Below, one piece after another: positions 2,071-5,688 of a stretch of 5,688 nucleotides of DNA. The notes under the pieces are model-generated. The model was not told where the DNA came from. It worked only from the letters and a program-made list of their open reading frames with translations, and did not search any database. Made by a program: the position numbers and the translations under genes. The DNA lies in the NCBI GenBank assembly GCA_001871015.1, contig MNUO01000023.1, positions 1 to 5,688 on the forward strand. The letters are read 5' to 3'. The DNA is from Candidatus Desantisbacteria bacterium CG1_02_38_46. GTDB taxonomy: Bacteria; Desantisbacteria; UBA1551; UBA1559. How positions within the stretch are numbered: the stretch's first letter is position 1; the number at the start of each line of letters is the position of its first letter.

Positions 2071-2946
2071 ATGTTTCAGGGTTCATTTGTAGCTTTGATT
2101 ACTCCATTTAAAAATGGAAAAGTTGATGAGGATAAATTAAGAGAACTGGTAGAGTTCCATATAAAGAATGGTACAATGGGGATAGTTCCCTGCGGAACAA
2201 CAGGTGAGTCTCCAACACTTTCCCATGAAGAACATAAACGAGTTATAAAAATTGTAATAGAGCAATCTCGCAAAAGAATTCCTGTGATAGCGGGAACAGG
2301 TTCAAATTCAACCGCTGAAGCACTTGACCTTACCAGGGACGCAAAGGAGAATGGTGCTGATGCCTGTCTTGTACTGTGTCCTTACTATAACAGGCCAACA
2401 CAAAAGGGGATGTACCTTCACTTTAAGGAAATTGCAACGAAAGTTCATCTTCCTATAATAATTTACAATATTCCATCTCGGACCGGGGTGAATCTTGAAC
2501 CGCAAACACTTGCGAATTTGAATGCTGAGTACCCAAACATTGTGGGTGTAAAAGAGGCAAGCGGTATTATGGACCAGGTGAGTATGATAATCAAGTTGTG
2601 TTCAAAGGATTTCTGCGTTTTATCTGGAGACGATTCTATGACTTTACCAATTATGTCTTTAGGAGGAAAGGGAGTCATTTCGGTAGTTGCCAATATCCTG
2701 CCCGGGGAAATTGCGGATATGGTTGAAAAATTTTTGAAGGGAGATATCGAAGGCGCTAGGTTATTACACTACAGACTTTTCCCATTGGTAAAGGTTCTTT
2801 TTATTGAGACAAATCCAATACCCGTTAAAACCGCGATGTCTTTATTAAAAATGGACACAGGGGAAATGCGCCTGCCACTTTCACCAATGTCAGAAGAAAA
2901 CCTGGCAAAATTAAAGAAAGCAATGCAGGACTACGGATTATTGTAA
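2071..2946 (+). CDS. dapA: 4-hydroxy-tetrahydrodipicolinate synthase
   Basis: DapA condenses pyruvate with L-aspartate-4-semialdehyde, the first committed step towards diaminopimelate and lysine, in the cytosol. The 291 residues match the family length (292 in E. coli) and form a TIM barrel. Active-site features are visible: the GTTGESPTL loop (T43, T44), Y105/Y106 in PYYNRP, YNIPSRTGV with Y132 and R137, and the Schiff-base lysine K161 in GVKEASG. ISVVANILP lies at about 203-211. The ATG at 2071 is preceded by GAGGGAAAG, which overlaps the lptC stop region, and this fixes the start. Its natural partner dapB is 1.6 kb downstream, separated by a nuclease cassette. No riboswitch-like leader is visible, as the gene follows lptC directly. 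Confidence 0.97.
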   Translation: MFQGSFVALITPFKNGKVDEDKLRELVEFHIKNGTMGIVPCGTTGESPTLSHEEHKRVIKIVIEQSRKRIPVIAGTGSNSTAEALDLTRDAKENGADACLVLCPYYNRPTQKGMYLHFKEIATKVHLPIIIYNIPSRTGVNLEPQTLANLNAEYPNIVGVKEASGIMDQVSMIIKLCSKDFCVLSGDDSMTLPIMSLGGKGVISVVANILPGEIADMVEKFLKGDIEGARLLHYRLFPLVKVLFIETNPIPVKTAMSLLKMDTGEMRLPLSPMSEENLAKLKKAMQDYGLL

Positions 2947-2986: not shown

Positions 2987-2998
2987 GGAGGTAATGAT

Positions 2999-3211
2999 AT
3001 GGAGTTACAAATTATTGAAAAAGAAAGTGTTGTTATTTTAAATCCCTTTTTTCCAATTAGAGTGGTTTTTACTGTGCATGATAAAGGGGCAAAAAGGTTT
3101 GAAAAATCTATTTTTGATTTAAAATTTGATTCACCAGCATTGTTAAAAAAAATCATAAAAATTTATGGTTCTGCTACTCCAGAACAAGTAATATACAAAC
3201 AGAGGAGATAA
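2999..3211 (+). CDS. Uncharacterised 70-residue protein, possible antitoxin partner of the PIN protein
   Basis: I do not recognise this family. The start ATG 2999 is well supported by GGAGG at 2987-2991, 7 bases upstream. The stop TAA (3209-3211) overlaps the PIN gene's ATG by one base, so the two are almost certainly translated together. The protein is basic and seems to begin with beta strands (LQIIEKESVVILNPFFPIRVVFTVHD). An amphipathic helix is likely around residues 46-57 (PALLKKIIKIYG), ending in ATPEQVIYKQRR. It has no signal peptide, membrane segment, or obvious ribbon-helix-helix or AbrB motif. Its place directly before a VapC-like nuclease is the usual antitoxin position, which is the only basis for that suggestion. 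The overlap, the strong ribosome binding site and the absence of a competing frame make it a real gene. Confidence 0.75.
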   Translation: MELQIIEKESVVILNPFFPIRVVFTVHDKGAKRFEKSIFDLKFDSPALLKKIIKIYGSATPEQVIYKQRR

Positions 3212-3672
3212 TGCTTGTAATTGATACTGATGTTTTAAGCATTCACCATATTTTCACCGGTGATAAACGATATAAAAAAAATAAAGAATTCCTTTCTATG
3301 GTTAAAACAAAAGAATCTTATACGACTATTTTTAACCTACTGGAACTATGTGGAATATTGGCAACTGTTGGAGACAAAAAACAAGTTGAAGAACTGTATA
3401 GAATGTATTTTGCATCAGAAGAAATCAAATTGCTTTTACCATCCACAATAGATAAGGTTTCAAACATATCGTGGTCGGAAATAAGTGAGGAGATGCTGGA
3501 AATTATTAAGAGAGGTACAAGATTTGGCGATGCCAGCATCCTTTGGATTTGCGAAGAGCACGATGTTAAATATTTTATTACCTGGAATATAAGACATTAT
3601 GAAGGAAAAACAAGCATACAATGTTTTACTCCAGAGCAATTTTTAAATAATACTAAAGGCTTGAAGAGATAA
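3211..3672 (+). CDS. PIN-domain ribonuclease, VapC-like toxin
   Basis: PIN domains are metal-dependent nucleases; VapC toxins of this class cut tRNA or rRNA. The 153 residues open with the family's first strand and acidic pair, MLVIDTDVLSIHHIF (D5, D7). These are followed by TTIFNLLELCGIL with the conserved E45, RFGDASILWICEEHDV with D107, and YFITWNIRHYEG with W125-N126. D5, E45 and D107 form the core metal site. The fourth position is N126, where some relatives have Asp; T-W-N also occurs in PIN proteins, so loss of activity is not implied. The start ATG 3211 overlaps the previous stop (TAATG) and has AGAGGAG just upstream. The stop TAA at 3670-3672 is immediately followed by the next gene's ATG. 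The length is slightly above the usual 120-140 for VapC. Toxicity and target are not shown by the sequence. Confidence 0.85.
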   Translation: MLVIDTDVLSIHHIFTGDKRYKKNKEFLSMVKTKESYTTIFNLLELCGILATVGDKKQVEELYRMYFASEEIKLLLPSTIDKVSNISWSEISEEMLEIIKRGTRFGDASILWICEEHDVKYFITWNIRHYEGKTSIQCFTPEQFLNNTKGLKR

Positions 3673-4494
3673 ATGATAAAGATAAATAGAGAAAAATCCA
3701 ATCTTGGAAAAGAGCATGAACTTATCATTATGAATGTTTATACTGGATTGTTGAAGAAATATCCAGGAGCAAAAGTTGAGTTTCGTAAAAAAATTATGGG
3801 GAAAAGTAATACTTTGAAGGAAATAGATGTATATACTGAAATTCCGATAGGACCACATACATACAAAACTGCTATCGAGTACAAAGATTATAAGAATAAT
3901 ATAGGGATAGAGAAAGTACAAGAATTTCTGGGAAAGCTTCAGGATATAAATATTGATAAAGGCATATTAGTTACAAAATCTGGATATACAGAACCGGCAG
4001 AAAAATTTGCTAAAGAACATGGTATAGATCTTATTGAATTAAGGAAACCAAAAGAAGAAGACTGGGAAGGTCGGGCAAAAACAATCCATGTCCAGATGCA
4101 AATATATTACCCAGAAATTTTTGATATAGAATTAAAAACCGACAGAAGAGAATTAGTTGGGAAAAAAATGAGTGGTTTGGCAAACGAATTAATTTTTGTT
4201 GATGAAAATGGAAATATATACAAGAATTTTAACAAAATTATACAAGAAAATATTCAAAATGACTTGACCGAAGAAATAAAAACAGTGAATATTACTTTCA
4301 AGAAACCATATTTTTTTAAAATAGATAGTGAAAAAGTATCTGTCAAAGGTATGAGTTTCAAATATCGTTTTCAAAAAGTTCCCAAAGAAATAATAATTGA
4401 CGGTGAAAATATCGTAGAATTAATAATCAAGGACACATTTACTGGAGAAATAAAAACCATAGATAAGAACTTCACTATAAGTGAAAAAAAATAA
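3673..4494 (+). CDS. Mrr-like restriction endonuclease (PD-(D/E)xK) with unassigned C-terminal domain
   Basis: The N-terminal ~125 residues match the Mrr-type nuclease core. A first helix has GKEHE (E14/E16 region). It is followed by EIDVYTE with the likely catalytic D52, then AIEYKDY with the E69-x-K71 pair, and IGIEKVQEFLGKL. The closing part is KGILVTKSGYTEPAEKFAKEHGIDLIEL, a strand-helix-strand typical of Mrr catalytic domains (Mrr family nucleases cut DNA, often modified DNA). Residues from about 135 to 273 form a lysine- and isoleucine-rich, probably beta-rich region (IHVQMQIYYPEIFDIELK to the end) that I cannot assign. The ATG directly follows the PIN gene's stop with no gap, so translation is probably coupled. 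The gene is strikingly AT-rich (10 G/C in 4201-4260), unlike prfB. A role in defence against foreign DNA is inference from the domain; no methyltransferase is adjacent. Confidence 0.8.
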   Translation: MIKINREKSNLGKEHELIIMNVYTGLLKKYPGAKVEFRKKIMGKSNTLKEIDVYTEIPIGPHTYKTAIEYKDYKNNIGIEKVQEFLGKLQDINIDKGILVTKSGYTEPAEKFAKEHGIDLIELRKPKEEDWEGRAKTIHVQMQIYYPEIFDIELKTDRRELVGKKMSGLANELIFVDENGNIYKNFNKIIQENIQNDLTEEIKTVNITFKKPYFFKIDSEKVSVKGMSFKYRFQKVPKEIIIDGENIVELIIKDTFTGEIKTIDKNFTISEKK

Positions 4495-4555: not shown

Positions 4556-5377
4556 ATGATTAAAGTTATTGTTAGTGGAGCATGTGGAAGAATGGGTTCA
4601 AGGGTGATTGCAAATCTTATTGCACAGAAGGATATGAAATTGGCGGGCGCGCTGGAGAAAGAAGGACATCCTGGACTGTGGAAAGATGTTGGCGATGTCT
4701 TGCATATAGGTGAACTGGGAATAAAACTTTCAAAAGATAGTGGAGAGGTGATTAGAAATGGCGATATTCTCGTGGAATTTTCTAATCCTGAAACTTCCCT
4801 TGAGCACCTTCGCATTGCTGCAAAGAATAAAAAATCTGTAGTTCTGGGAACAACCGGTTTTAATAATGCGCAGGTGGAAGAAATAAAAAGGACAGTAAAA
4901 GAAATTCCCTGTGTTTTTTCACCGAATATGTCAGTAGGTGTAAATTTGTTGTTCAAGATTGCCAGGGAAATAGCACCAATTTTAAAAGACTATGACATTG
5001 AAATAATTGAGGCACATCATAACTTGAAAAAAGATGCACCAAGTGGCACAGCATTGAAAATCGCACAAATTATTTCTGAAACTCTGGGTTTGAATTTGGA
5101 TAAGGACGGAGTTTATGGAAGGAAAGGGTTTACCGGCGAAAGAAAAAAAGGAGAAATTGGAATACATTCTGTTCGTGGTGGAGACATTGCTGGAGACCAT
5201 ACTGTAATTTTTGCAGGACAGGGTGAGAGATTGGAGTTGACACACCGCGCTTCAAACCGTGATGCTTTCGCACTCGGTGCAATCAAAGCAATACGATTCA
5301 TAGTAAATGCAAAACCCGGACTTTATAATATGGAAGATGTTTTATTATTTCCCATTCTGGATGGACAGACAAAGTAA
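4556..5377 (+). CDS. dapB: 4-hydroxy-tetrahydrodipicolinate reductase
   Basis: DapB reduces the DapA product to tetrahydrodipicolinate with NAD(P)H, in the cytosolic diaminopimelate/lysine pathway. The 273 residues equal the E. coli length. The Rossmann glycine motif SGACGRMGSRV is at residues 7-17. An acidic residue after the second strand (GALEKEGHP, E34) is typical of enzymes that can use NADH. VEFSNPE is at about 73-79 and VVLGTTGF at 95-102. The catalytic signature EAHHNLKKDAPSGTAL spans 152-167, with H154, H155 and K158. SVRGGDIAGDHTV is in the C-terminal domain. The start ATG 4556 has only a partial ribosome binding site, GGTGAT, very close by. The gene lies 61 bases after the Mrr-like nuclease and 1.6 kb from dapA, its pathway partner. 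Confidence 0.97.
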   Translation: MIKVIVSGACGRMGSRVIANLIAQKDMKLAGALEKEGHPGLWKDVGDVLHIGELGIKLSKDSGEVIRNGDILVEFSNPETSLEHLRIAAKNKKSVVLGTTGFNNAQVEEIKRTVKEIPCVFSPNMSVGVNLLFKIAREIAPILKDYDIEIIEAHHNLKKDAPSGTALKIAQIISETLGLNLDKDGVYGRKGFTGERKKGEIGIHSVRGGDIAGDHTVIFAGQGERLELTHRASNRDAFALGAIKAIRFIVNAKPGLYNMEDVLLFPILDGQTK

Positions 5378-5427: not shown

Positions 5428-5443
5428 AAAGGAGGAATGGTTG
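5428..5443 (+). promoter_or_regulatory. Ribosome binding site supporting a TTG start for the PH-domain gene
   Basis: AAAGGAGGAA (5428-5437) contains a full GGAGG, 5 bases before TTG 5441-5443. That TTG is in frame with the PH-domain sequence. An ATG at 5437-5439 lies in another frame and stops after 10 codons, so it is not the start. No in-frame ATG exists between the upstream stop (5402-5404) and the domain. Confidence 0.6.
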
Positions 5444-5688
5444 GGGATTCCTGTCTTTATTTCCTTTAAAACCTCAGAGTTCGGAATAACAAACAAAAGA
5501 GTTTTGTTTAAGATTGGTTTTATCAGAAGAAACTCTCTGGAAATTCTTCTAACAAAAATTGAAGGAATTCAAGTCAATCAAGGGATCCTTGGAAGAATAT
5601 TGAACTATGGAACAATAATAGTTAGGGGGACTGGTGGAACAGGTAGTCCTTTTCGTAAAATTGAGGCTCCTTTGGAATTCAGGAAGAA
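5441..5688 (+). CDS. Bacterial PH (bPH_2-like) domain protein, N-terminal part (partial)
   Basis: The frame runs off the right edge. The product begins GIPVFISFKTSEFGITNKRVLFKIGFI. It continues with LEILLTKIEGIQVNQGILGRILNYGTIIVRGTGG and ends with PFRKIEAPLEFRK. The order T-x-E-F-x-I-T-N-K-R-V, then K-I-E-G-I-x-V-x-Q-G-x-L-G-R-I-L-x-Y-G-T, then R-G-T-G-G and P-F-R-x-I-x-x-P is the hallmark of the YdbS/YdbT-like bacterial PH domain. In most relatives this domain follows one or two membrane helices beginning around an L-P-G-E motif. Here only about 9 residues precede the T-S-E-F strand from the TTG start, and the in-frame sequence back to the stop at 5402 contains no long hydrophobic stretch. 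It may be a short soluble variant or a gene whose 5' end has been lost. Cellular role is unknown for the family. Confidence 0.75.
   Translation, partial: MGIPVFISFKTSEFGITNKRVLFKIGFIRRNSLEILLTKIEGIQVNQGILGRILNYGTIIVRGTGGTGSPFRKIEAPLEFRK

Follow-up and report, generated by a model that had tools for sequence, protein, structure and literature searches.

A probably acquired cassette between dapA and dapB in a Candidatus Desantisbacteria genome: a VapBC-like pair, whose putative antitoxin is unfamiliar, beside a predicted solo Mrr-type nuclease

The window analysed here, meaning the whole stretch of 5,688 nucleotides of Candidatus Desantisbacteria DNA, carries prfB, lptC, dapA, three small open reading frames (ORFs) and dapB on one strand (Table 1). 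The three small ORFs, referred to as genes 1 to 3, were recovered with exactly the lengths, spacing and dapA/dapB flanks given in a preliminary description of this DNA. The TAA stop codon of gene 1 (3209-3211) shares one base with the ATG of gene 2 (3211), resulting in the sequence TAATG at 3209-3213, while the stop codon of gene 2 and the start codon of gene 3 follow each other as TAA-ATG at 3670-3675 with zero bases in between. Translational coupling of the three genes, as suggested earlier, is probable. Promoter-like sites across the cassette region do not exceed chance level, and just one terminator-like site was detected in the region, located on the minus strand. Spurious ORFs of similar length also occur in the window; for genes 2 and 3, homologues are known. 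Both contig ends hold incomplete ORFs, one before prfB (3-218) with a weakly CBM9-like C-terminus and one after dapB (5441-5686) coding for a bacterial PH-domain protein (PF03703). The prfB ORF itself was listed with a TTG start at position 375; a programmed frameshift is usual in the start region of this gene.

Table 1 Features of the dapA-dapB region (positions refer to the window)
Feature	Position	Strand	Basis or remark
dapA, upstream flank	2071..2946	+	PF00701 2.9e-100; 69% identity with dapA of G001
Shine-Dalgarno sequence GGAGG of gene 1	2987..2991	+	7-nt spacer to ATG; sequence
Gene 1, 70-aa orphan in antitoxin position	2999..3211	+	no family match; no family antitoxin tail
Gene 2, predicted PIN/VapC-type RNase toxin, 153 aa	3211..3672	+	AF2 fold, conserved residues
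Gene 2, active-site residues	D5 3223-3225; E45 3343-3345; D107 3529-3531; N126 3586-3588	+	
Gene 3, predicted Mrr-type PD-(D/E)xK nuclease, 273 aa	3673..4494	+	PF04471 2e-13
Gene 3, active-site residues	D52 3826-3828; E69 3877-3879; K71 3883-3885	+	
dapB, downstream flank	4556..5377	+	PF01113/PF05173; adjoins dapA in G001

The cassette formed by these three genes had been regarded as an AT-rich, acquired insertion between dapA and dapB. Originally, its AT-richness was deduced from a comparison with prfB only, a gene which is itself unusually GC-rich (96th percentile for GC in its own genome). Here, 195 kb sampled from the same genome (152 genes, 833 windows of 1496 bp) served as baseline instead, and the cassette is still extreme, as its GC content of 29.3% lies not only far from the genome mean of 38.4% but also below the minimum of 31.4%, and is thus lower than in any of the 833 equally sized windows. 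Foreign codon usage was considered as another sign of acquisition and dismissed: the AT-ending codons found in the cassette are simply those that this genome prefers too. Since codon usage of the cassette matches the genome preference, it is, of the compositional signs, the GC level alone that supports acquisition.

A second line of evidence comes from G001, a relative of the same taxonomic order, which together with the query genome (G000) makes up the two-genome sample of the phylum. G001 carries prfB, lptC, dapA and dapB, and the empty site sought in close relatives was indeed found there, with dapA and dapB adjacent, a gap of 112 bp including the stop codon and no cassette in between. Moreover, no relatives of gene 2 or gene 3 were detected in G001, the sole other genome of the phylum compared. 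Judged by this one relative, which is devoid of both nucleases at the same site, the arrangement does not belong to a vertically inherited core genome. As dapA directly followed by dapB (gap of at most 112 bp) is also the commonest arrangement in dapA loci of other phyla, the filled site is probably derived and the insertion most likely occurred on the G000 side. An assembly chimera is unlikely because the contig has syntenic flanks on both sides. A search for insertion footprints revealed neither direct nor inverted repeats of more than 7 bp between the flanks, and neither tRNA genes nor Rfam elements were found in the window. Taken together, the GC outlier and the empty site in G001 make an acquisition of the three-gene cassette likely. 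As side observations, the dapA-dapB gap of G001 (L005, 2374-2479) contains a short repetitive stretch (gttcatcgttcgtcgttcatcg...) which resembles a dispersed repeat, and in some genomes of other phyla dapA and dapB are spaced by 283-1035 bp (L129, L130, L121).

Gene 2 gives no Pfam match by sequence, PIN included. The PIN label assigned to it earlier is borne out by its predicted fold and by PF01850 matches in three of the 24 members of its family. An AF2 model based on an alignment of 24 sequences reached a pLDDT of 90, and its best structural matches are VapC/FitB toxins (VapBC 5x3t with Z 14.4 over 128 residues at an rmsd of 2.4; FitB 2bsq with Z 13.9). Residues D5, E45 and D107 are invariant across the 24 sequences and a TWN motif is present. 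According to this model, the protein adopts a PIN fold of the VapC/FitB type with intact active site, and its predicted activity is that of an RNase.

Relatives of gene 2 were found in 31 PIN loci, the majority of them in Chloroflexota and others in Bipolaricaulota, Nitrospirae, Deltaproteobacteria and Armatimonadetes. Scans of viral contigs yielded none, and at the sensitivity used they are absent from plasmids and phages as well. The upstream gene is readable in 28 of these relatives, and in every one of them it is small and overlaps or abuts the start of the PIN gene. Hence, the view that the cassette departs from a standard VapBC layout cannot be maintained for genes 1 and 2, which display the standard antitoxin-toxin arrangement. 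After removal of their last 28 residues, the upstream proteins fall into eight sequence clusters, with representatives matching PhdYefM, MerR/HTH_17 and RHH, and a C-terminal tail of approximately 12 residues is common to 27 of the 28 (the copy in G053 is weak, with 9.9 bits). Judged from these sequences, the putative antitoxins of this PIN family present one presumably neutralising tail on many scaffolds, all of them paired with the same PIN family. The tail motif reads [ST][LFW]x[ED]xMxxxRxR and is observed on unrelated N-terminal domains, i.e. Phd, MerR/HTH, RHH and one unclassified helical domain (L014-L041). MerR-PIN, Phd-PIN and RHH-PIN pairs have been described (Makarova 2009, PMC2701414), as has partner exchange with linear neutralising elements (NetFlax 2023, PMC10440598). 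The relatives of gene 2 pair alike, whereas in the window the partner is an orphan protein.

Indeed, gene 1 yielded no match in Pfam, NCBIfam, PADLOC or PHROG and no real homologue among 386 genomes. The single weak match (L050, E 0.008) is located within an ATPase gene, in antisense orientation, and was attributed to chance. By eye, the C-terminus of gene 1 (SATPEQVIYKQRR) bears some likeness to the family antitoxin tail (e.g. NVREAMAWTRRR); this candidate was rejected by a position-specific tail profile, run with background and shuffle controls. On this profile, the tail of gene 1 scores -2.2 bits, a value that 231 of 489 background proteins attain as well, compared to 14-27 bits for true family antitoxins in leave-one-out scoring, and gene 1 was not reported by a gapped tail HMM either. 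Genes 1 and 2 therefore resemble VapBC/FitAB in the PIN fold, the conserved acidic residues, the small overlapping upstream gene and the antitoxin-first order, but differ in that gene 1 shows neither a match to a known antitoxin domain nor the tail of the relatives' partners, and gene 2 lacks a Pfam PIN match; a recognisable antitoxin of the VapBC type is not seen in gene 1. Because gene 1 has neither homologue nor family tail, it is solely position, size and overlap that point to its probable role as antitoxin of gene 2. Alternatively, gene 1 could be an unrelated small or decaying ORF, with gene 2 acting as a free PIN RNase or being neutralised by an unlinked antitoxin. While the missing homologues and the missing common tail would fit such an explanation, it is unlikely given the good Shine-Dalgarno sequence and start spacing of gene 1, its codon-position GC order (GC1>GC2>GC3, like gene 2) and the small gene found at this exact position in every readable relative.

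The assignment of gene 3 as an Mrr-like PD-(D/E)xK nuclease was confirmed by its match to Mrr_cat, which with 50.9 bits clearly exceeds the gathering cut-off of 21. In 22-23 aligned sequences, E16, D52 and E69 are invariant and K71 is nearly invariant. The model of gene 3 has a pLDDT of 81.5, and its nuclease part resembles AF1548 (1y88, Z 14.6), Can2/Card1 (Can2 with Z 10.7), NucS/EndoMS (NucS with Z 9.9) and AspBHI/MspJI. The C-terminal part, a beta-rich domain of about residues 137-273, is not accounted for by these matches. With regard to a type IV (modification-dependent) restriction enzyme, matches to PADLOC mREase_IV models likewise cover the nuclease part alone, and neither a CARF nor a modification-reader domain was identified in gene 3. 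Full-length relatives including the C-terminal domain were found on several plasmids, in phage phi3T and in 38 viral contigs. Solo Mrr-type proteins (PF04471) such as phi3T_78 and WP_086898769 from an Acetobacter plasmid display approximately 25-35% full-length similarity to gene 3, C-terminal domain included, and share the conserved active-site D, E and K. Gene 3 differs from them in having E-Y-K where E-C-K is usual and in its location within a chromosomal cluster of core genes, where it follows a PIN toxin-antitoxin pair. In a survey of 35 loci of the gene 3 family, the surroundings consist mostly of unrelated phage or plasmid genes, with no neighbour family present in more than four loci. 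The combination of Mrr_cat and C-terminal beta-rich domain is a common solo gene in prophages and plasmids (L057-L094, L008-L012). Gene 3 is plausibly a solo cargo nuclease as well, with a predicted role in DNA exclusion.

The central proposal of the preliminary description was that an RNase and a DNase have been combined here into one defence unit, and homologues never found together elsewhere had been named beforehand as the outcome that would speak against it. This is what the block search returned within the material covered. None of the 31 PIN loci (flanks of 5 kb at most and often shorter, from pattern-seeded scans) contains an Mrr-like nuclease, none of 40 Mrr-family loci contains a PIN gene, and when 386 genomes were searched with both profiles, the two families met in the query genome alone; likewise, the three genes together were not encountered elsewhere in the PIN loci, the Mrr loci or the 386 genomes. 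In a single three-gene system, gene 3 would cut foreign DNA, the PIN RNase would serve as abortive back-up and gene 1 would regulate both. Such a system would be in line with the very tight packing, the AT-rich composition common to all three genes and their joint absence from G001, and the zero-base junction between genes 2 and 3 fits a single functional unit just as well as coordinated expression. Yet, with families that do not co-occur in either set of loci or in the other 385 genomes, and with gene 3 relatives that travel alone and have no recurring partner, a single system is highly improbable.

Linkage without a shared mechanism is conceivable too, if the toxin-antitoxin pair makes the cell dependent on the cassette by addiction and, in this way, guards gene 3. 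A precedent exists in CreTA, a toxin-antitoxin module guarding CRISPR-Cas (PMC9458426), and the genes concerned are adjacent and probably co-transcribed. However, a second example of the pairing was not found, and chance co-insertion accounts for the arrangement equally well, leaving a guarding function quite unlikely. It is very unlikely that gene 1 is the first member of a new antitoxin family and that, at the same time, the PIN pair and the Mrr-type nuclease are coupled in one module, be it as guard and guarded or as a two-stage defence directed first at DNA and then at RNA.

Rather, the cassette can with reasonable confidence be read as a type II toxin-antitoxin pair, with gene 1 as antitoxin by position only, located beside an independent, mobile solo nuclease. 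By analogy with what is known of the respective families, the locus would comprise two independent units, both acquired, side by side. In the first one, a type II toxin-antitoxin module, gene 1 would be translated first, with the TAATG overlap coupling it to the toxin, and its product would bind and silence the VapC-like PIN RNase encoded by gene 2 until it is itself degraded. The second unit, gene 3, would be unrelated to the first. It would encode a stand-alone DNA endonuclease of the Mrr type, from a family borne by prophages and plasmids, which probably keeps out foreign DNA via its conserved PD-(D/E)xK domain and possibly uses the C-terminal beta-rich domain as recognition module. Placed beside the toxin-antitoxin pair, gene 3 is probably co-transcribed with it.

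The locus is real, probably acquired and ordinary in kind, consisting of a VapBC-like pair, in which the putative antitoxin is unfamiliar, and a solo Mrr-type nuclease. The tempting reading of the cassette as a new defence system is thereby removed, and the close packing of a restriction-type gene with a toxin-antitoxin pair does not in itself constitute evidence that they work jointly. Should gene 1 indeed neutralise gene 2, an orphan antitoxin would join a PIN family in which the other partners have a single C-terminal tail in common, borne on several DNA-binding scaffolds, and rescue by gene 1 would then put to the test how readily the neutralising element can be replaced.
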